Shown one piece after another: positions 1 to 17,231 of a stretch of 22,289 bases of DNA. The notes beneath the pieces were generated by a model. The model made no database searches. It was not told the origin of the DNA and saw only the letters and a list, made by a program, of their open reading frames with translations. A program made the translations under genes and the position numbers. Location of the stretch: the IMG/VR virus record IMGVR_UViG_3300024301_000778, positions 1-22,289 of that record, one strand, 5' to 3'. The DNA is from a virus. Positions within the stretch are counted from its first letter, which is position 1, and each line of letters begins with the position of its first letter.

Positions 1-222
1 CGTTAAGAGTGAAGAAGAAGCGATTGCTGATCCACAGCCGTAGGTTTTGAATTTGGCGTCCGTGATAACATTGTTTTCGTCTACCTCGATCTGGAGACGC
101 ATGACATCGCCACAAGCGGGTGCGCCTACCATGCCTGTGCCTATGTTTGCTTGTGCTGGATCAAATTTACCTACGTTGCGTGGGTTCTCATAATGATCGA
201 TTACTTTATCTGAATATGCCAT
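1..222 (-). CDS. iscU: IscU-type Fe-S cluster scaffold, C-terminus cut by window edge
   Basis: Scaffold on which a cysteine desulfurase assembles [2Fe-2S] clusters for transfer to apoproteins. The first 74 residues are visible, starting MAYSDKVIDHYENPRNVG. They hold the two N-terminal cluster ligands in their family context: Cys37 in GAPACGDVM, with the conserved Asp39, and Cys63 in TYGCGSAIASSS. The third Cys would lie beyond the window. From memory, about three quarters of these residues match E. coli IscU, a very close match for a phage gene, suggesting fairly recent acquisition from a proteobacterium. The start ATG has a good ribosome site (AAGGA, about 5 nt upstream) and lies 13 nt after the preceding gene. 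No IscS, HscA/B or ferredoxin is visible here. The family call is near certain; whether the gene is intact cannot be seen. Confidence 0.95.
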   Translation of the reverse strand, partial: MAYSDKVIDHYENPRNVGKFDPAQANIGTGMVGAPACGDVMRLQIEVDENNVITDAKFKTYGCGSAIASSSLLT

Positions 223-2166: not shown

Positions 2167-2991
2167 CTAGCTTTGCACCATTTCTATTACATTGTTAGCA
2201 ACAGTAGCGTGCCAGTCTTCGCCTGGATGTATTCCATCTCTTCCACGAGAAACTAGTTTTATATTTTTTAATTTAATATAATCAACCAAAATTAATTTAC
2301 TGCCAGTGTCGCTTGCTATTTTTTCAATAGCTTCTACGTTTTTGTTAAATGAAAGGTACATATTAGGATCATTCAATTCTTCTGCTAGATGTCTAGTAGC
2401 ACGTTCTTGGTTTCCTTCGTTTAAATCTTTTGCAATAGTCCATTGTCCTATATTATTAAAGATAGTTTCAACTTCATTGACTATAATCTTTTCACATCTA
2501 TAATGAGGAGGAACTGCTAGAACTGTTATAGAAGATTTTGCAACAGGTTGCCATTCTTTATACAATCTATAAGCACTATCTAAAGATCCTCCTGGAACGC
2601 TTAAATTGTATTCGGGTTTTCTAAGAGCTTTTGCAACAAGTGTAGGCCAGGTTTTCTCTTTGTACATGCCAACACCAAAAGTCATGCTACAACCTAAAAA
2701 CATTATGCTGTTAGTGTCTTCTACAATTTCGCTGCATCGATGTCCAAAAGAATTTAAAGAGTACTGTATAGGCTCTTGTTGATTCCAATACCCCTTATGT
2801 TCTTTTGATAATTTTTCAAATTGTTCTTTAGTGTCTGATGGATACCAGTCTATAGTACATGGCAAATCGAAATTACGCAAATACCCTAAGTTGATGCATT
2901 TCAATTGATGTTTTTGTTCGTCTGTTAAAACTCCCCCGTTTGAAATGCTTCTGTAAGTATTGAGCCTGTGCAAATCTTTTTCAGTTTTCAT
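2167..2991 (-). CDS. SGNH/GDSL-type hydrolase-like protein
   Basis: Probable esterase or acyl-hydrolase fold. FLGCSMTFGVG (residues 98-108) matches the block I nucleophile turn, with Ser102 in place of the GDS serine. NLSVPGGSLDS (129-139) fits the oxyanion-hole Gly block. DGIHPGEDWHATVAN (252-266) supplies the Asp252-x-x-His255 dyad of block V. The block III Asn is not obvious. An N-terminal extension of about 95 residues has no recognised domain. No signal peptide is present, so any action is in the cytoplasm or on the virion. The DNA is visibly more AT-rich than its neighbours, suggesting separate acquisition. Its ATG overlaps the previous stop as ATGA. The substrate is unknown; carbohydrate deacetylation is one guess. 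Confidence 0.72.
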   Translation of the reverse strand: MKTEKDLHRLNTYRSISNGGVLTDEQKHQLKCINLGYLRNFDLPCTIDWYPSDTKEQFEKLSKEHKGYWNQQEPIQYSLNSFGHRCSEIVEDTNSIMFLGCSMTFGVGMYKEKTWPTLVAKALRKPEYNLSVPGGSLDSAYRLYKEWQPVAKSSITVLAVPPHYRCEKIIVNEVETIFNNIGQWTIAKDLNEGNQERATRHLAEELNDPNMYLSFNKNVEAIEKIASDTGSKLILVDYIKLKNIKLVSRGRDGIHPGEDWHATVANNVIEMVQS

Positions 2992-3170
2992 CCTAATATC
3001 TCGAATGTTGTCTCTGTGATTTTAATCTTTAGAGTTCCATCTTTATTTGCCATGCTTTCTAGGTATTCAAGAAAGCGCATAACACCTTCCTTTCTTCCTA
3101 TTTGATACGACATAAAGCCACACCCTGCCATGAGGAAGAGCGTAACAGCGTAATAAATTTCCATAGTCAT
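2988..3170 (-). CDS. small single-pass membrane protein, 60 aa
   Basis: A 60-residue protein starting MTMEIYYAVTLFLMAGCGFM. The N-terminal 25 or so residues form one hydrophobic segment, with a GxxxxYQxGRKEG turn after it and a short charged C-terminal domain (MRFLEYLESMANKDGTLKIK). The start at 3170 is preferred over an in-frame ATG at 3197 because it makes an ATGA overlap with the stop of the mini-ferredoxin-like ORF just upstream. Its own stop makes another ATGA overlap with the SGNH gene. The function is unknown. The topology fits a membrane anchor or a small phage inner-membrane protein; nothing points to a holin specifically. Confidence 0.7.
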   Translation of the reverse strand: MTMEIYYAVTLFLMAGCGFMSYQIGRKEGVMRFLEYLESMANKDGTLKIKITETTFEILG

Positions 3171-3274
3171 TTTTTCTTCCTCTCGGATTGAATGCATTTA
3201 CCGCAACAAGTTCCTATCAAATGATATTTATCAGTGTCGCCAGAACGAACATTGTTGCAGATACAAAGGATCAT
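3167..3274 (-). CDS. 35-aa Cys-rich protein resembling a shortened Bfd-type [2Fe-2S] ferredoxin
   Basis: Very small ORF that begins MILCICNNV and ends GTCCGKCIQSERKKK. The pattern CxCN-x-V near the N-terminus, then CGKC followed by a basic tail, matches both ends of bacterioferritin-associated ferredoxin (E. coli Bfd as I recall it: CLCNGI ... CGKCV). The middle is shortened: Cys6 to Cys24 is 18 residues, against about 32 in Bfd. A fifth Cys (Cys23) is present. Reality is supported by ATGA overlaps at both ends, upstream with the MazG stop and downstream with the membrane-protein start. It could bind [2Fe-2S] or zinc; the Bfd likeness and nearby IscU favour Fe-S, but that is inference. Confidence 0.68.
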   Translation of the reverse strand: MILCICNNVRSGDTDKYHLIGTCCGKCIQSERKKK

Positions 3275-3579
3275 TCTTCTTTGATAAAGATGCCGTCTAC
3301 CATCTTGCCTTTACGGTCTTTGATATCGTCATACGCTTGCTGTAAACACTCAGCGATTGTGATATTGTTGCGTTCGGCAATGTTGATTAGCACTACAATG
3401 ATATCACCGATATCGTCACGAATGTCTTTGCCTTTGCATACATTGTCAGACAGTTCGCCTACTTCTTGAATCAGTTTACACACCTGATCCTTGTCAGTAG
3501 CGCCTTCGATTAGATTGCGGTCATGATGCCACTGCCTAATCTTGTAGATTAAATTCTCACACATTCCTTCAGTTGACAT
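3271..3579 (-). CDS. mazG: MazG-like nucleotide pyrophosphohydrolase
   Basis: Hydrolyses (d)NTPs, or ppGpp-type nucleotides in some members, to monophosphates. The 102-residue single-domain form shows the metal-binding helices of the all-alpha NTP-PPase family: Glu39 and Glu42 in KLIQEVGELSDN, and the second acidic helix DDIGDIIVVLINIAE with Asp55, Asp56 and Asp59. MazG genes are common in marine T4-like phages and are thought to reshape the host nucleotide pool. Here the gene sits in an early-type operon with a HAD phosphatase. The ATG overlaps the preceding small ORF by 11 nt; the stop overlaps the Cys-rich ORF as ATGA. Natural substrate not deducible. Confidence 0.85.
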   Translation of the reverse strand: MSTEGMCENLIYKIRQWHHDRNLIEGATDKDQVCKLIQEVGELSDNVCKGKDIRDDIGDIIVVLINIAERNNITIAECLQQAYDDIKDRKGKMVDGIFIKEE

Positions 3580-3676
3580 CTTTTTTATCCTGTAGCTGTT
3601 GAATGAGTTCCATCAAAGCACGAAGCTCGGTAGCATCTCGTTCAGTATCAATTTCAATTTGAATATTAATTAGCAT
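3569..3676 (-). CDS. hypothetical 35-aa helical protein
   Basis: Small ORF, MLINIQIEIDTERDATELRA and then a Gln/Leu-rich tail ending DKKDVN. It fills the gap between the HAD gene and mazG, has a clear ribosome site (GAAAGGG about 7 nt before the ATG) and overlaps the mazG start by 11 nt. A short beta-strand-like start followed by an amphipathic helix is all that can be seen. It may be a tiny protein in its own right or a leader that couples translation to mazG. No family is recognised. Confidence 0.55.
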   Translation of the reverse strand: MLINIQIEIDTERDATELRALMELIQQLQDKKDVN

Positions 3677-7873: not shown

Positions 7874-8099
7874 CTTTAATCTCCCAATCCACATCATAAC
7901 CGCCTTTGCGATCTGTCCATAAATCATCTTCACGGTCGTAATCGAATTCCCACATGAATTCATTGAACTCATCTGATTCTTCTTCGTAATGTTCCATGAA
8001 GGATTCTACACTACCAAAAGTTTCGATGATTTCTTCTTCTGGCACATCGTAAGTGAATGTGCTAGTCATTTGATGATATTCACGCTTTTCAATAATCAT
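7863..8099 (-). CDS. acidic 78-aa hypothetical protein
   Basis: Very acidic protein, MIIEKREYHQMTSTFTYDVP at the start and DYDREDDLWTDRKGGYDVDW near the end. It has Phe/Tyr/Trp residues regularly spaced among Asp and Glu, a composition seen in DNA-mimic or inhibitor proteins, though also in ordinary small phage proteins. The ATG follows the RNase H stop directly (TAAATG), so it is translated from the same message. No family recognised. Confidence 0.65.
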   Translation of the reverse strand: MIIEKREYHQMTSTFTYDVPEEEIIETFGSVESFMEHYEEESDEFNEFMWEFDYDREDDLWTDRKGGYDVDWEIKDDE

Positions 8100-8996
8100 T
8101 TAAAAGTCCGCCATAACTTCAAGCATGTTCTTCATTTTGTGCTTGATAAAATAATTTAATAGTTGAGACTTATCGCCTCCCTGTTGTCGTTCGTAACTAC
8201 TTATAATCTCATCTTTGATGTCTTGTGGAGTCTTAGTTAGGTCCACAAGCATTTGATTACGATTGTAACCGTGAGACATATCAGAAGTGATCCACTTCTC
8301 AGGAGGAGTTTTCTTCCACTCTGTTAGTAGATTCTTACGAATAGACTTTTGCCTAATGCCTTCAACAAAACAATTGTCTGCCGATAGCATGTTAGGTACA
8401 CCGTCACCTTTGTCGCCTGTGATGATGTGTTCCATCAATACTTGTTCAGCAGGCTCTTTGATTTTGATCCACTTCTTCTGTGCAGGTGAGTACTGTTTCA
8501 CATTGCTCCACTTCTGTAACTGATTGAAGTCATGATCACCTGACAACACTAGAAAAGGAATCTGTGTGCCTTCATCAAACAAACCACCACCTTCGCCTGC
8601 TGTCTGTGAATATTCAGCGAGTGTACCGATAACATCATCAGCCTCAGCACCGTCAACATCGATTACAGGATAAGGAAAGTATTCATCCAGTTCGTTGCGA
8701 ATAGTAGTCAGTGCCTCGAATATAGCAGACCAATCGTGGGCGCTGTCATCTCGTGCTTTCTTTCGGTGTGCCTTGTAGTAAGGAAATACATCTCTACGCC
8801 AATAGCGTCTGTTGTCGCAAGCGATTACTACCTCATCGCCAAATTCATCTGAGAATTTGTTTTTGTATGAGCGTATTGTGTTGAGTATCATGTGACGCAT
8901 CAATGGCAAATTGACCTCGATGTCTGAACCGCCACGATGACCAATCTCACCCATGAATGTAGCAATTGCTACTTGATTAAAGTCTACTACCATCAT
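8100..8996 (-). CDS. rnh: RNase H / 5'-3' flap exonuclease, T4 Rnh type
   Basis: Removes RNA primers and adjacent DNA from lagging-strand fragments. The FEN/T4 RNase H active-site acids are all placed: Asp5 (VVDFNQ), Asp61 (ACDNRRYWRRDVFPYYK), Glu118, Asp120 and Asp121 (DGAEADDVIG), Asp154 and Asp156 (LSGDHDFNQL), and Asp195 and Asp198 in the helix-hairpin-helix entry GDKGDGVPN. YWRRDVFPYYKAHRKKAR is typical of the T4 group. The 298 residues match T4 RNase H (about 305). Two ATG codons in tandem start it, just after the preceding stop. A replication gene in the operon driven from 10158. Confidence 0.93.
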   Translation of the reverse strand: MMVVDFNQVAIATFMGEIGHRGGSDIEVNLPLMRHMILNTIRSYKNKFSDEFGDEVVIACDNRRYWRRDVFPYYKAHRKKARDDSAHDWSAIFEALTTIRNELDEYFPYPVIDVDGAEADDVIGTLAEYSQTAGEGGGLFDEGTQIPFLVLSGDHDFNQLQKWSNVKQYSPAQKKWIKIKEPAEQVLMEHIITGDKGDGVPNMLSADNCFVEGIRQKSIRKNLLTEWKKTPPEKWITSDMSHGYNRNQMLVDLTKTPQDIKDEIISSYERQQGGDKSQLLNYFIKHKMKNMLEVMADF

Positions 8997-11393: not shown

Positions 11394-11725
11394 TTTGGTG
11401 TCCACTCTATGGGCTCGAAATCAGCCAGAGGTTCTTTGTTCAGGCGGATATTGAGCATGGAATTTAAACACTTAGGATCGTGTCGTTGTTGCCACTGTAG
11501 GAGAAACTCTTGCATTTTAGCCCACGACTTCTTGTCGAACTCTGCAATAGTTTCCTTCTCAAGTTGTCCTTCGTACTCTAGGACATACTTTGAAGACCCA
11601 TAATATTTTTCATACAGGCGTTGTGTTTTGCCTGAGTAACCTATGTAGTATGTTCCGTCTGGAAAATAGGTACAATAAACTCTATGTACCTGTTTCTCCT
11701 TCGGCTTCTTTTTCTTCACTGCCAT
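11381..11725 (-). CDS. GIY-YIG-domain endonuclease-like protein
   Basis: A 114-residue protein: basic tail MAVKKKKPKEKQ, then VYCTYFPDGTYYIGYSGK (16-33), where YIG (27-29) is the second signature and VYC replaces GIY. Arg36 follows in TQRLYEKYYGSSK; Glu73 (MQEFLLQW) is the likely metal-binding Glu, with Asn88 (CLNSML) after it. Compared with I-TevI/Seg proteins the catalytic core is present and the DNA-binding tail is absent, so it may be a reduced Seg-like homing nuclease. It has its own late promoter inside the preceding gene and a good ribosome site (AAGGAA, 6-7 nt). It overlaps both neighbours. Confidence 0.68.
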   Translation of the reverse strand: MAVKKKKPKEKQVHRVYCTYFPDGTYYIGYSGKTQRLYEKYYGSSKYVLEYEGQLEKETIAEFDKKSWAKMQEFLLQWQQRHDPKCLNSMLNIRLNKEPLADFEPIEWTPKCYS

Positions 11726-11894
11726 CTAGTGTTCCTTCATCATCAGAAACACTATTTATAAAGTCTTCAGCAGTCGTAAACTTCAGGTCAGTATCGTTCT
11801 TCTTGCCGAAGATTTTGTCCCAGTTATCGGCGAACTTTTTATCGTCAGCGCCCTTGCGGCGTGCTGAACCCTTGCCCCCATGCCATTTTGTCAT
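11682..11894 (-). CDS. small basic/acidic conserved-type phage protein, 70 aa
   Basis: Protein starting MTKWHGGKGSARRKGADDKK, followed by FADNWDKIFGKK and an acidic C-terminal half ending EEKEAEGETGT. Short proteins with a W-x-GGKGS-x-RR start and a YDKIFGKK-like motif recur in marine T4-like phages; function unknown. Start at 11894 forms a TAATG overlap with the zinc-ribbon gene. The GIY-YIG gene starts inside its last 44 nt and a late promoter lies within its coding sequence. Confidence 0.72.
   Translation of the reverse strand: MTKWHGGKGSARRKGADDKKFADNWDKIFGKKNDTDLKFTTAEDFINSVSDDEGTLDGSEEKEAEGETGT
11753..11760 (-). promoter_or_regulatory. T4-type late promoter for the GIY-YIG gene
   Basis: Exact TATAAATA on the minus strand, within the coding sequence of the 70-aa gene. 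The start site would be near 11747, giving a leader of about 21 nt with AAGGAA before the ATG at 11725, the same layout as the element at 5149. Confidence 0.65.
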
Positions 11895-12082
11895 TACCAA
11901 TCTTCCTCTATATCGTCTTCATCTATGAAGTCATCGAGCGATGCTTCAATCTCTAACTCTGCACCACAAAAAGAACAAAAACTTACTACATAATGCCTGT
12001 CTGACATGTCGTGGCGTACTTTATATTCTGCCTCACACTCTTCGCATTCTACAGTTTTTTTGATTATGATACTATCTGACAT
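11894..12082 (-). CDS. zinc-ribbon protein, 62 aa
   Basis: Starts MSDSIIIKKTVECEECEAEY. Two CxxC knuckles, Cys13/Cys16 and Cys36/Cys39 (SFCSFCGAELE), 19 residues apart, make a zinc ribbon, followed by a very acidic tail (DDFIDEDDIEEDW). Such small phage proteins may bind RNA polymerase or nucleic acid; which is not shown. Start at 12082 is preferred to one 12 codons upstream, which would extend further into the dCMP deaminase gene. The stop overlaps the next start as TAATG. Confidence 0.78.
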   Translation of the reverse strand: MSDSIIIKKTVECEECEAEYKVRHDMSDRHYVVSFCSFCGAELEIEASLDDFIDEDDIEEDW

Positions 12083-12522
12083 CTTATTCCCGCCTTTTCT
12101 AAAAACTCCTGTCCACAACCTTTTGTTGCGTTATACTCATTTATATAGTACACCTGCGAGATGCCAGCTTGATAGATAAGTTTAGCACACTCAATGCATG
12201 GAGTATGGGTAACAAACATGGTAGCACGTAGGCTTGACTCTGTTGAGCTACATAATTTCATTAGAGCATTTGCTTCTGCATGAAGGACTTCAGGTTTTGT
12301 CGTAAGAAATTTTATGTCTCCGTTCGGCCACTTAATTACTTCTTCACATTCATTGTCCCAGCCAGAGGGAGTACCATTGTATCCTATTGACAGTATTCTG
12401 TTGTCTCGTACAATGACACAACCTACTTGTAGTTTTTTAGCAGAAGATAACAATGCAGTATCTTTTGCTACCTTAACATAATATTCTATCCATCTATCTT
12501 TCAATACTTCCCATTCGGTCAT
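12064..12522 (-). CDS. cd: dCMP deaminase
   Basis: Converts dCMP to dUMP, the substrate for thymidylate synthase (here ThyX). The zinc site of the cytidine/deoxycytidylate deaminase family is complete: His81-Ala-Glu83 (VLHAEANAL), Cys109 and Cys112 (THTPCIECAK). GCVIVRDNRILSIGYNGTPSG (35-54) is the usual substrate-binding stretch. Length 152 is near ComEB-type enzymes. The ATG at 12522 (MTEWEVLKD) overlaps the NrdB stop as ATGA, supporting this start over 12540. Part of the dNTP operon. Confidence 0.92.
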   Translation of the reverse strand: MTEWEVLKDRWIEYYVKVAKDTALLSSAKKLQVGCVIVRDNRILSIGYNGTPSGWDNECEEVIKWPNGDIKFLTTKPEVLHAEANALMKLCSSTESSLRATMFVTHTPCIECAKLIYQAGISQVYYINEYNATKGCGQEFLEKAGIRCQIVS

Positions 12523-13496
12523 GCCCAAACGTCTCCCCAATTGCCTGAAAGTGCTCCACGAGCATAGTCAGTTGCTCTATTCTCAAAAAAGTTTGTGTGA
12601 GTAGGAGCATTAATCATTTCTTCTACCCACGGCAATGGATTCTTCTTAACTTTGAAGATGCCTTTGAGTCCGAGACTAATCAATCGTCTGTCACAGATGT
12701 AACGAATGTATTTCTTCACATCTTCTGCGGTTAGATTCTCCATAGCACCCATCGCAAACGCTAGATCAATGAACTGATCTTCTAATTCTACCATCTTCTC
12801 AGCGATAGTGTAAATCTTACCTTTGAGGCTATCGTTCCATAGGTCAATGTTCTCGTTTACATATTCACGGAACAATTTAATCATGTTCTCGGCGTGTAGA
12901 GTTTCGTCTACGATTGACCAAGTAACAATCTGACCCATGCCTTTCATCTTACCGTGACGTGGGAAGTTCAGCAACATAATGAATGACGAGAACAACTGCA
13001 TGCCTTCAGTAAATGCTGAGAATGCCGCAATGTTAGTAGCGATTGTTGTCTTGTCTTGTGTCTCCATCGAAAGTTCTTGAAGATAATCGTGTTTCTCTTT
13101 CATCGCTTCATATTCAAGAAACTCATTGTAAGTAGACTCAGGCATGCCCAATGTCTCAATGAGGTGGGAATATGCTGCTACATGAAGAGCCTCACGAGCA
13201 GCAAACCCTGCGAGCATCATTCTAACTTCAGGCTGTGGGAAGTTAGGCAAGTAGTTATTTACATAACCACCCGCCACATCGATATCACCTTGAGTAAAGA
13301 AACGGAAGATGTTAGTAAGAAATCCTTTTTCTGCATCAGACAGTTTTGATTTCCAATCTTTTACATCTTCGTTCATTGGTACTTCTGTGTGTAACCAATG
13401 AGACTGTTCGTGCTTTAGCCAAGCATCATATGCCCAAGCGTAGTTGAAAGGTTTGAAGTAACTTCTCTCGTCTGTCAATTTTAATTTTGTTGCCAT
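12519..13496 (-). CDS. nrdB: ribonucleotide reductase class Ia, beta (radical) subunit
   Basis: Houses the di-iron site and tyrosyl radical used by NrdA. Ligands align with E. coli NrdB by spacing: Asp71 (TQGDIDVAGG), Glu102 and His105 (REALHVAAYSH), radical Tyr109, Glu164 (TEGMQLF), Glu198 and His201 (DETLHAENM). The 31-residue gap Asp71-Glu102 and 34-residue gap Glu164-Glu198 equal those in E. coli. The Tyr is retained, so a classical Fe2-Y enzyme is expected. Length 325 is slightly short. The ATG follows the preceding stop directly (TAAATG). Two unrelated genes separate it from nrdA. Confidence 0.95.
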   Translation of the reverse strand: MATKLKLTDERSYFKPFNYAWAYDAWLKHEQSHWLHTEVPMNEDVKDWKSKLSDAEKGFLTNIFRFFTQGDIDVAGGYVNNYLPNFPQPEVRMMLAGFAAREALHVAAYSHLIETLGMPESTYNEFLEYEAMKEKHDYLQELSMETQDKTTIATNIAAFSAFTEGMQLFSSFIMLLNFPRHGKMKGMGQIVTWSIVDETLHAENMIKLFREYVNENIDLWNDSLKGKIYTIAEKMVELEDQFIDLAFAMGAMENLTAEDVKKYIRYICDRRLISLGLKGIFKVKKNPLPWVEEMINAPTHTNFFENRATDYARGALSGNWGDVWA

Positions 13497-14168
13497 TTAT
13501 TCTGCTCTTATTTTATCTAATTTTTTGAAAAGTTCTTTTTGATATAGTTCATCAAACAAATGATATAGTACTATTTGTCTTGTGCCTTTTATGATACAAG
13601 TACCATACTTTTTCATTGGCTGTGTTCGTAAGCCATAATCTTTGTAGTGGCGTGGTTTACACACTCTACCATTTATAAGTTGTGTGTCGTAGTAATAATT
13701 AGGATATCTTTTAGGGTCTGTTATTCTAACAATCTTATCCGCTAATTCTGAGTTATATTCTTCAAGTGTAATTATACCACCTATGTAGCCTTCTGTCAAT
13801 GCTTTATCTGCAATAAGTGAGCCTAATTGATTTGAGGTAGTCATCTTGTCTCTACCTAATGCTTTTATATGTGAAGGAACACTGTACACCCTAGACTGTA
13901 CATACATGTTAGGATCTTCATCAAAAGGATAATAGCCATGTCCTGCTACTATATTTCCATTTTCCCGATAGATATAATAACCAGCTCTATCATCGTATCG
14001 TTTTTCTATGTAAATACAGTATAAAAGAGAATGAGGACTGTTCTGCCAATTTTCTGGCCGCATATTTATAGCTGCTGGTCTCTCATCATCAATCGCAGCT
14101 TCACATAAAGGCATTATTTTTTCTATAGGGTACTTACTTGTTACTCTTTCAACTATTCTTTCTCTCAT
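13497..14168 (-). CDS. unknown protein, possibly GNAT-like, paired with the PP-loop gene
   Basis: A 223-residue protein that I cannot assign. The central part (GYYIYRENGNIVAGHGYYPFDE, then SNQLGSLIADKALTEGYIGGIITLEEYN, residues about 65-148) could be read as a degenerate acetyltransferase fold, but the CoA loop is not convincing. Tyr and Arg are frequent, and no Cys cluster or metal motif is present. Its ATG overlaps the PP-loop gene's stop as ATGA, and both share the AT-rich composition that stands out from nrdA and nrdB. A joint function with the PP-loop ATPase is likely from this coupling; its nature is unknown. Confidence 0.72.
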   Translation of the reverse strand: MRERIVERVTSKYPIEKIMPLCEAAIDDERPAAINMRPENWQNSPHSLLYCIYIEKRYDDRAGYYIYRENGNIVAGHGYYPFDEDPNMYVQSRVYSVPSHIKALGRDKMTTSNQLGSLIADKALTEGYIGGIITLEEYNSELADKIVRITDPKRYPNYYYDTQLINGRVCKPRHYKDYGLRTQPMKKYGTCIIKGTRQIVLYHLFDELYQKELFKKLDKIRAE

Positions 14169-14776
14169 ATTTTACCAGTGTCTTCTAATTCTAATTTTGC
14201 AAATGCCATTTTTCTTTCTTGGCACCAATAACATTGATTGCATCTAGACATAGGTTGCTGAGTGCAACTGTGGGTAACTGGCATTATTGCTTCTAATATA
14301 CCTAGATCTTTTGCAAAATTTACTGTTTCATCTTTTGTATGATAATAGAAAGGCTGTTCCATAATTTTTTTCTGATTGTCATTAGGACGCTTTCTTTCTT
14401 CTGGCGGAGGATCCCAAATTAAATCTTTAAAGTATGAAGTAACGGCAGTCAATACAAATTCTTCATATCGCAATCTGATAACATCTCCTACACCTGATCT
14501 AGTATATTCACCAGGGTCTTCGCTGAACTGTCCTACCATTGTAGTTTCTATTTCAGGAATGCCAAGTAAATTACATGTAGTTTGTAAAACATTTTTCGCA
14601 TGATATTCAGCGCCGTCTAGCTTTGGTATCGTGTAAGGATTACATTGCTGATTTCTTTCTAAGCAAATTTTCTTTACTACATACCAAAGGACGGCACTGT
14701 CAAAACCACCCGATACTAATACACCGATAGTTTTATCTTTAGGTATTATAGAATCTATTTCATCTAAAGTTATCAT
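14165..14776 (-). CDS. PP-loop ATPase, QueC-like with Cys4 zinc cluster
   Basis: N-type ATP pyrophosphatase: LVSGGFDSAVL (20-30) is the SGGxDS PP-loop that adenylates a carboxyl or carbonyl group. Near the C-terminus HSCTQQPMSRCNQCYWCQERK gives Cys171, Cys179, Cys182 and Cys185, a spacing of 8-3-3 that resembles the zinc site of QueC (7-cyano-7-deazaguanine synthase, C-x8-C-x2-C-x2-C). At 203 residues it is a little short, and the region after the PP-loop differs from QueC as I recall it. No queD, queE or folE lies in this window, so a deazaguanine role is unproven; another amide- or thio-forming PP-loop enzyme is possible. TAATG-coupled to nrdA. Confidence 0.78.
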   Translation of the reverse strand: MITLDEIDSIIPKDKTIGVLVSGGFDSAVLWYVVKKICLERNQQCNPYTIPKLDGAEYHAKNVLQTTCNLLGIPEIETTMVGQFSEDPGEYTRSGVGDVIRLRYEEFVLTAVTSYFKDLIWDPPPEERKRPNDNQKKIMEQPFYYHTKDETVNFAKDLGILEAIMPVTHSCTQQPMSRCNQCYWCQERKMAFAKLELEDTGKI

Positions 14777-16578
14777 TAGCCCTCACATGCCAAGCATTCG
14801 TCATTGTTTACAAGTGCTGTCATGTCAATCTCTTTGATGATTTGACGTTCAATGCGATTAGATACTTTATCTGCTTTGCCTAGTTTCTCTGAACGACAAT
14901 AGTAAAGTGTCTTCAAGCCTTGCTTCCATGCCATGTAGTGAATAGCATGTAGATACTTGATGTTAGAGTCAGGACGGAAGAATGTGTTGAGTGACTGTGC
15001 CTGATCGATAAACTCTTGTCTATCAGCAGCGTGTTCAATCACCCATCGCTGGTCGATCTCCATTGAGGTCTTGAATACATCTTTCTCCCACTGGTCCAAG
15101 AAAGTTAAGTGTTGGACTGATCCGTCATTTGAGATGATTGATGACCAGATTTCGTCTTCTGCCTGTTTTGTTTCGCCAGCTTCAATCTTACTCTTAATGA
15201 GTTGTACCAGATACTTATTTTTGTTGAGATAAGCTCCAGAAAGAGTGTCTTGTCTATAAGCGTTCGCCCTAAAAGGTTCAATGGAAGGCGAAGTGTTGCC
15301 CATAATAATACTGCTACTAGCATTGGGAGCAATAGCCATAACATGACTAAATCTAAGACCTCGTCCCCTAGCGTCTGGGGCTTCTCCTCTGGATTCTCCC
15401 AGTTCTTTATTTGCGTCATCGAGTTTTCCTCTTATGTGCTTGAACATTCTTAAGTTAGCGCCTTTAGCCATTGCGCTTTCCCACGGCAGATTGTTCTTCT
15501 GTAAATAAGCATGAAAACCTAGTGCGCCCACACCAATACTTCTCTCACGGCTAGCTGAGAATTTGGCACGAGCAACTTCATCAGGAGCATTGTCAATGAA
15601 AAACTGTAGTACATTGTCTAACATCTCTGCGATATCTTTGAGGAACAAACTGTTCTTGCTCCAAGCATCGTAATGCTCAAGATTTACAGAAGACAAACAA
15701 CAAACTGCTGTTCTGTCTTTGTTTGTAGGCAGAATAATTTCTGAACACAGATTTGATTGATGTACCTTCAGTCCTAATTCTTTTTGCCATTCAGGCAAGT
15801 GACGATTACTTGTGTCAATGAAGTGAACATACGGCTCGCCTGTCTCCATACGAAGTTCAAGAATCTTTTGCCACAAATGCTTTGCTGATACAGTATCTCT
15901 GATTTCACCTGAGTGAGGATCAATAAGATTCCAACCATCGTCAGAATCAGGATCAGTCATACATCGTTCAATGATTTCCATGAACCGATCTGAGATGTTA
16001 ATGCCGTGATGAAGATTCAAACAGCGAACATTCGGATCACCTGTCGGCTTTCGCATCTCAAGATACATCATCACATCTGGGTGAGATATATCAAGATAAG
16101 TAGCGTAAGAGCCCCGTCTAGTGCGACCTTGGCGATATGCGAGGCACGATGCATCGTAAGTCTTGAGATGAGGCATAACACCAACAGACTTATCATCAGA
16201 GGAACGGATACCAAAACCAATCCCAACACCACCCCCAAGCATAGAAAGCCAATTTGTTTCAGAAAGATTTTCAACGAGACCCTCCGCAGTATCATTAATG
16301 TAGTTTAGAAAGCATGAAATAGGCATGCCTTTCTTTGAACGACCAAAAGAGAGAATAGGAGTAGAATAGGAAAGCCAATGTTTGCTACTGTAATCATATA
16401 AACGCTGTGCGTGTTCTGGATTGCTACCAAACTTGCTACTAACATAAGCAAATCGTTCTTGAGGAGACTCTTCGTCTTCTCGCATGTAGCTTTCTTTAAG
16501 TCTAGATAGTCCTAACTTATCAAATAGCGCATCTCTGCCATAATCTATTTGAATTCCCATATACTCTTTTTTTGCCAT
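14776..16578 (-). CDS. nrdA: ribonucleotide reductase class Ia, alpha (catalytic) subunit, no ATP-cone
   Basis: Reduces NDPs to dNDPs with NrdB. Catalytic residues: Cys89 (PISCFLN), the Asn276-Leu-Cys278-Ser-Glu280 thiyl-radical site (SNLCSEI), partner Cys293 (VCCLSSVNL), radical-transfer Tyr559-Tyr560 (KTLYYCRSE) and the shuttle pair Cys595/Cys598 at the very end (DECLACEG). At 600 residues it is much shorter than E. coli NrdA (761): the N-terminus goes almost directly into the catalytic domain, so the allosteric ATP-cone (about 90 residues) is missing and dATP inhibition through it would be lost. The start at 16578 forms TAATG with the thyX stop. Confidence 0.95.
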   Translation of the reverse strand: MAKKEYMGIQIDYGRDALFDKLGLSRLKESYMREDEESPQERFAYVSSKFGSNPEHAQRLYDYSSKHWLSYSTPILSFGRSKKGMPISCFLNYINDTAEGLVENLSETNWLSMLGGGVGIGFGIRSSDDKSVGVMPHLKTYDASCLAYRQGRTRRGSYATYLDISHPDVMMYLEMRKPTGDPNVRCLNLHHGINISDRFMEIIERCMTDPDSDDGWNLIDPHSGEIRDTVSAKHLWQKILELRMETGEPYVHFIDTSNRHLPEWQKELGLKVHQSNLCSEIILPTNKDRTAVCCLSSVNLEHYDAWSKNSLFLKDIAEMLDNVLQFFIDNAPDEVARAKFSASRERSIGVGALGFHAYLQKNNLPWESAMAKGANLRMFKHIRGKLDDANKELGESRGEAPDARGRGLRFSHVMAIAPNASSSIIMGNTSPSIEPFRANAYRQDTLSGAYLNKNKYLVQLIKSKIEAGETKQAEDEIWSSIISNDGSVQHLTFLDQWEKDVFKTSMEIDQRWVIEHAADRQEFIDQAQSLNTFFRPDSNIKYLHAIHYMAWKQGLKTLYYCRSEKLGKADKVSNRIERQIIKEIDMTALVNNDECLACEG

Positions 16579-17231
16579 TATAGTTCCTCTACTGCTTTCG
16601 CTACATCTGGGAAATGTTGACTGATAACATCCCAACATTGTTCTGCGATTTCAATATGTTCTTTTTGTGTGCCGTTAGCCATTCTCAATTTGCAGTAATG
16701 TACCCACGATCTGAGAGTGCCTGACATGTATAGTGTTGTTTCAGTATTACCTTCTGGTAGTACTGCTCTTGCTTGCTCTTTTGCTATTCCGTTCTCTAGC
16801 GCCCACTGGTAGGCATCGTTCGCTGCGTTGATGACTGCCTTTTGGGCCATGTTCCAACTCTCTGCCAATTCACGGTCTTCTGTTTCGATGCTGTTTTGAC
16901 GATTCTTCTCGTCTTGTAATCGACATTCTCTCGTCTCGAAGTTGGTTGATTTTGCATATCTTTGTGAAAATTCCTGGAAACTGAAGCTACGATGCCTTAT
17001 AATCTGTCTAGAGATGTCACGAGTAGTGGTAATCTCCATTGTAACGGAAACCATCTCAAATGGGCTCCAATGTTCGTGTTTTATGAGATATCCGAGTAGT
17101 TTTGATGCAGTTTTTGGGTTGTTTTGATTGTCCGGGTTACTTACTCTTGCTGCGTATGCGATTAACTCATTTGCCGTGTAGCAACCTGTGGCTGCTGATG
17201 GCTGGGTCATACCGACTAGACTAACACTCAT
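16578..17231 (-). CDS. thyX: flavin-dependent thymidylate synthase ThyX
   Basis: Makes dTMP from dUMP using FAD and methylenetetrahydrofolate. The ThyX signature is complete at residues 79-91 (RHRSFSFQEFSQR; Arg79, His80, Arg81, Ser89, Arg91). Other family parts include HEHWSPFEM (52-60), the catalytic-type Ser near AVLPEGNTETTLYMSGTLRSWVHY and the C-terminal KEHIEIAEQ helix. Length 217 is normal. Start at 17231 (MSVSLVGM) makes TAATG with the primase stop and has GGAG 9 nt upstream; ATG codons at 17237 and 17246 are alternatives. Works downstream of dCMP deaminase. Confidence 0.94.
   Translation of the reverse strand: MSVSLVGMTQPSAATGCYTANELIAYAARVSNPDNQNNPKTASKLLGYLIKHEHWSPFEMVSVTMEITTTRDISRQIIRHRSFSFQEFSQRYAKSTNFETRECRLQDEKNRQNSIETEDRELAESWNMAQKAVINAANDAYQWALENGIAKEQARAVLPEGNTETTLYMSGTLRSWVHYCKLRMANGTQKEHIEIAEQCWDVISQHFPDVAKAVEEL

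Follow-up and report, generated by a model that had tools for sequence, protein, structure and literature searches.

What is encoded by a 35-codon reading frame that carries two pairs of cysteines and overlaps the gene on either side of it in a viral genome? The frame lies in IMG/VR virus record IMGVR_UViG_3300024301_000778, of which positions 1 to 22,289 were analysed as a single stretch of 22,289 nucleotides, referred to here as the window. A preliminary description, made from the letters alone, had proposed that the frame encodes a Bfd-like mini-ferredoxin next to mazG that keeps both ends of the Bfd cluster-binding pattern and lacks about half of the sequence in between. The features on which the following analysis draws are these:

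1-222, minus strand: iscU, an Fe-S scaffold of the NifU_N type, cut by the window end (PF01592, 6.9e-32; phrog_8429)
2988-3170, minus strand: downstream small ORF, likely start MTMEIYYAVTL, with a hydrophobic N-terminal stretch (homologues in L090, L116 and L140)
3167-3274, minus strand: mini ORF, Bfd-like, 35 residues, translation MILCICNNVRSGDTDKYHLIGTCCGKCIQSERKKK followed by a stop
3271-3579, minus strand: MazG-like pyrophosphatase, upstream of the mini ORF (PF03819, 2.9e-5; phrog_1992, 1.1e-39)

Residues 4-7 of the mini protein read CxCN and residues 24-27 CGKC, followed by a basic tail, so both ends of the Bfd pattern are present in the translation. The proposed ATGA overlaps were also confirmed: the mazG TGA (3273-3271) overlaps the mini ATG (3274-3272), and the mini TGA (3169-3167) overlaps an ATG at 3170-3168 that lies inside the next ORF, for which position 3197 had been listed as the start. 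This inner ATG is the likelier start because the homologues of the downstream ORF are 59-60 residues long, which fits 3170. The estimate that about half of the intervening sequence is gone was close, as 17 residues separate C6 from C24 compared to 31 in Pseudomonas Bfd, leaving 14 missing. The motif C.C[NH].{5,40}CG.C in an open frame occurred once in the window and at a mean of 0 in 400 triplet shuffles. A second 35-residue ORF (MLINIQIEIDTERDATELRALMELIQQLQDKKDVN; window 3569-3676, minus strand) overlaps the mazG start and has no family match.

Relatives were first reached via mazG homologues in IMG/VR, with the mini ORF itself unused as a query, and this search showed mazG to be followed by this small ORF in L001-L004 and L006. 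Since every pattern scan fixes some residues and is open to ascertainment bias at those positions, we compared scans that fixed different ones. Scanning for YHLIGTxCGKC returned 61 contigs, and CxC[NH]x[VI], which the pattern did not require, was found upstream at a constant distance in 61/61. Conversely, CxCxxV-x14-CGKC gave 70 matches, with YHLIGT or a near form in ~68 of the 70, again outside the pattern, while a less strict pattern with YHLI and the Lys unconstrained returned 89. The IMG/VR scans yielded 57 distinct homologous cores in which the layout C-x-C-[NH]-x-V-x7-[YH]HLIGT-x-CG-x-C was invariant. All four cysteines (C4, C6, C24 and C27), the loss of which in homologues the preliminary description had named as grounds for rejecting it, were kept in 57/57 cores, as were L19, I20 and G21; H18 was kept in 56/57, and the cysteine pairs were 17 residues apart in every family member.

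We assessed substitution patterns in pairs of loci that were found via mazG only and so carry no pattern bias. Synonymous changes far exceeded replacements between the window and L004 (Sd 10/16, Nd 1/65, P = 4e-8) and between L003 and L004 (12 synonymous, 3 replacements, P = 1e-8), which indicates that the protein is what is conserved and bears out the predicted coding selection. Across the whole set, mean pS was 0.81 compared to a mean pN of 0.19 that is partly biased by the scan patterns, and third codon positions were near free (entropy 1.29 bits compared to 0.38-0.56). It is highly improbable that the ORF is untranslated and its conservation that of an RNA or DNA element: the location of the ORF, frequently right at the boundary of a gene, tRNA or tmRNA, might suit such an element, but the near freedom of third positions, the excess of pS over pN and the unbiased window-L004 pair refute this in practice. 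Given also that the motif was absent from the shuffles and the layout was kept in 57 cores, the mini ORF is not a product of chance; it is a real gene under protein-level purifying selection.

The suggestion that homologues may be unannotated proved right. Neither tblastn of members of 35, 42 and 79 residues against 50,697 phage records nor searches of the window mini ORF by itself against Pfam and PHROG gave a relevant or usable match, no copy of the family was found above threshold with Pfam, and we found no description of the family in the literature. Two exact-pattern scans, run without a positive control across 257 Gb of genome sequence from bacteria and archaea, gave no match, and no mini ORF was found in cultured-phage records. 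The mini protein is thus a member of an unannotated, apparently virus-only protein family, which appears to be virus-specific and uncultured as far as exact patterns reach, and which has been overlooked because gene callers and profile libraries do not reach down to proteins of this length.

Kinship with Bfd was assessed with the 57-member profile against 177,635 PDB sequences, where Bfd structures were the best matches (4E6K, 6E6Q/R/S; E = 3e-5 to 1e-4), followed by a DUF35 zinc ribbon at E = 0.21. The Bfd matches were collinear and in two pieces, with Bfd 1-13 aligned to profile positions 1-13 and Bfd 34-47 to positions 20-33. Aligning the family with Bfd in hhalign gave a probability of 97.1% (E = 5.9e-11) and a single gap of exactly 14 residues, where the Bfd side comprised six sequences. 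Four of these came from records in the phage collection, and one of the four has the same sequence as Pseudomonas Bfd and is possibly host DNA. Shuffles that preserved the cysteines and the start Met lowered the alignment score by z = 2.9-5.9. Sub-threshold PF04324 matches occurred in ~20 whole records, where they were in order and nearly confined to the two termini of the mini ORF, with scores of at most ~14 bits and no record above the curated cut-off of 26 bits. Fer2_BFD weakly matched 38/57 members and zinc_ribbon_6 weakly matched 43/57; because no Pfam score is strong by itself and the count for zinc_ribbon_6 is similar to that for Fer2_BFD, the case for Bfd kinship is a joint one, to which the PDB profile search, the shuffles and hhalign give statistical support.

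The likeness to Bfd covers an M-Y-x-C-x-C start equally far from the first residue, [NQH]-x-V after the start motif, a [VI]-G-T-x-C-G-K-C end, and both loops in the same order. Unlike Bfd, the mini protein appears to lack a conserved third helix, is not linked to a ferritin gene and has an extra invariant YHLI. Two tested features set it apart from standard PF04324 members, namely the cysteine-pair spacing, which is 17 in every mini protein rather than the ~31 of Bfd/Fer2_BFD, and the Pfam score below the cut-off. AlphaFold models from two runs on family alignments were too low in confidence to be informative, with a mean pLDDT of 57 and 54 and no Bfd-like helices before the second cysteine pair. 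Full-length Bfd proteins of cultured phages (e.g., Klebsiella phage vB_KpM_FBKp34) are likewise phage-borne, and the FBKp34 end VATCCGKCKQ resembles IGTCCGKCIQ of the window, but that protein is full length at 63 residues, has PF04324-type spacing and occurs in another gene setting. The family nevertheless most likely descends from a PF04324 member, and it may work like one.

A further candidate role is an action on host bacterioferritin: M1, Y2 and I5 would dock the mini protein at the Bfd site, where it would drive iron release, as Bfd does, or act as a decoy that blocks host Bfd. In Pseudomonas Bfd, the residues that contact bacterioferritin are Y2 and L5 (PMC13136788). M1, an aromatic residue 2 and a hydrophobic residue 5 of this edge are kept in the family, and the core begins at the start codon in nearly all members including fusions, as an N-terminal docking edge requires. 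The contacts are only loosely kept, however, since residue 2 is Y, F, I or L (I in the window) and residue 5 is I, V or L, and four invariant cysteines would be superfluous in a pure decoy. No ferritin gene (PF00210) was found in 50 mini-bearing records, many of them fragments, although a host bacterioferritin could serve. We therefore consider a bacterioferritin role unlikely, though possible.

Bfd ancestry does not settle the metal, as a domain left over from Bfd might by now have turned to zinc. The preliminary description had placed the ORF in a mazG neighbourhood, which proved not to be general: only five mini-bearing genome types show it, and iscU cassettes, permuted tmRNA genes and in-frame fusions also recur. 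Its description of the ORF was confirmed, and its interpretation was partly supported, in the cysteines, the Bfd kinship and the absence of annotation, with [2Fe-2S] binding a candidate property. A function deduced from the mazG association was considered and rejected, as other mini loci have other neighbours. Fusions in frame join the mini protein to UvsW helicase (L139:3802-5391, L256:1230-2825), to T5orf172 (L092:428-883, L110:1513-2001, L265/L268) and to unclassified proteins (L257, L258, L259). Fused copies continue stop-free to the start Met that belongs to the following gene (UvsW, T5orf172 and others; also L114 and L276), a pattern that looks as if a short cassette had been inserted between two genes.

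A rival reading, to which the UvsW and T5orf172 fusions lend support, is a minimal zinc-binding domain that would coordinate a single Zn(II) through the four cysteines, H18 or H7 being alternative ligands. It would be a module that stabilises or targets phage proteins acting on nucleic acids, with the free copies as small regulators. The HL-x-G-x-x-C-x-x-C spacing equals that of DUF723 fingers, the mini ORF in L092, L110 and L136 lies just before T5orf172 where Vibrio phage D181 has a DUF723-type finger, and H18, kept in all but one core, has no counterpart in Bfd; the zinc_ribbon_6 matches point the same way. Against the DUF723 or treble-clef fingers of phage T5orf172 endonucleases, however, the likeness is confined to the H-L-x-G-x-x-C-x-x-C half and the position before T5orf172: hhalign gave 35% for the C-terminal half only, compared to 97% at full length for Bfd, and the first half is C-x2-H in the fingers but C-x-C-[NH] in the mini protein, with no profile similarity. 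The combination of C-x2-H ... H-x5-C-x2-C with profile similarity that marks a DUF723-type finger was not found. C6 is invariant, though it would be dispensable in a C-x2-H finger, position 7 carries Asn in 35/57 cores, and no zinc-finger chain fell below E = 0.2 in the PDB search. Nor does zinc binding predict linkage to iscU and A-type carriers, and we regard it as a serious alternative, though a less probable one than a [2Fe-2S] cluster.

Seven distinct mini ORFs were located inside permuted tmRNA genes (L091, L096, L105, L111, L113, L123 and L128), for example at L096:7987-8172 within a tmRNA at 7891-8285. These genes were called by ARAGORN as tmRNA*, and all six loci that were scanned with Rfam matched RF04321 (96-124 bits). 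The nested ATG follows the CCA of the acceptor piece by 2-3 bases and the core ends ~9 bases before the GGGGGTG of the coding piece; as there is no in-frame stop before the coding piece, the excised spacer would be a non-stop mRNA. The literature searched contained no account of a permuted tmRNA whose spacer harbours a protein gene.

Linkage to iron-sulfur genes is the setting that tells us most. The window iscU lies ~3 kb downstream of the mini ORF on the same strand, and seven distinct mini ORFs either adjoin iscU or sit in an iscU/A-type-carrier cassette, usually with a stop-start overlap. Four loci (L085, L104, L112 and L153) have the mini ORF directly after iscU, starting inside the iscU stop codon (1-base overlap). 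L115 and L121 have iscU followed by an A-type carrier (IscA/ErpA type) and then the mini ORF, which starts inside the carrier stop, and L103 has iscU, a 79-residue ORF, mini and A-type carrier. Physical linkage of the mini ORF to iscU/iscA-type genes is thus present in several genomes. NifU_N was found in 12/50 mini-bearing records compared to 3/50 mazG control records (one-sided P = 0.011), with control records of somewhat larger total length and records that were not fully independent. A-type carriers were adjacent in three loci and not enriched in mini-bearing records overall (7/50 compared to 10/50 controls). Most mini loci do not adjoin iscU, and in the reverse direction only 1/80 sampled phage iscU loci had a mini ORF, so the mini protein is not a general partner of phage iscU. 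For 40 of the 60 distinct mini ORFs, an upstream open frame of 50 codons or more ends at the mini start, its stop overlapping the start codon or lying no more than 4 bases from it; this arrangement suggests translational coupling to the upstream gene. In three loci iscU, the mini ORF and tRNA-Cys(gca) succeed one another within a few bases (L085:1708-1815; also L126 and L144).

In cellular systems Fdx serves the isc operon, and a BFD domain sits inside NifU. Both resemble the mini protein in being associated with an IscU-type scaffold, and in the phages the mini ORF is a separate gene coupled to that scaffold gene. The mini protein differs from the NifU domain in being a separate protein of 31-80 residues with no Nfu domain, and from isc Fdx in that the latter is a much larger plant-type ferredoxin of different fold. 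Marine phages and viromes are known to carry iscU and A-type carrier genes (PMC5332604, PMC9038755).

Our main reading, to which we assign a probability of about 0.5, is that the mini protein is a phage-specific minimal [2Fe-2S] ferredoxin, derived from a Bfd/Fer2_BFD domain, that serves phage IscU in Fe-S assembly. The domain would have lost 14 residues between its cysteine loops M-Y-x-C-x-C and I-G-T-x-C-G-K-C, both of which stayed. In Bfd the two loops flank the first two of three helices, so on this coordinate-free argument the loss would shorten the helical hairpin and could leave the cluster-binding base, where the four cysteines would hold one [2Fe-2S] cluster. Produced by coupling to the upstream gene, as the stop-start overlaps suggest, the mini protein would donate electrons to, or take a cluster from, phage IscU, with or without an A-type carrier, in the infected cell, a role modelled on Fdx and the NifU domain and suggested by the gene neighbourhood. 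More tentatively, the family may comprise the smallest natural [2Fe-2S] ferredoxins, virus-only and cut from Bfd, which act as the ferredoxin of phage iscU/A-type-carrier cassettes and were also put to use as an N-terminal enzyme module and lodged, as a gene, within the segment that is excised from split tmRNAs. If cluster binding is true, the family would define how small a natural [2Fe-2S] ferredoxin can be and show which part of the Bfd fold is dispensable, and a coupled mini-ferredoxin would be a directly testable answer to the question of where viral scaffolds obtain electrons.

A small unannotated protein with the motif [KQS]xFA/ExNWD[KR]IFG[KR]K lies directly before or after the mini ORF, or is fused to it, in L095, L103 (L103:10729-10968), L114 (L114:3309-3602) and L117, and a similar protein occurs elsewhere in the window at 11682-11900. 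The window also encodes the following proteins:

12519-13496: phage class I ribonucleotide reductase, small chain
14165-14776: QueC-like protein
14776-16638: phage class I ribonucleotide reductase, large chain

The small chain of the ribonucleotide reductase is a possible iron-dependent client of a phage iron/Fe-S system.
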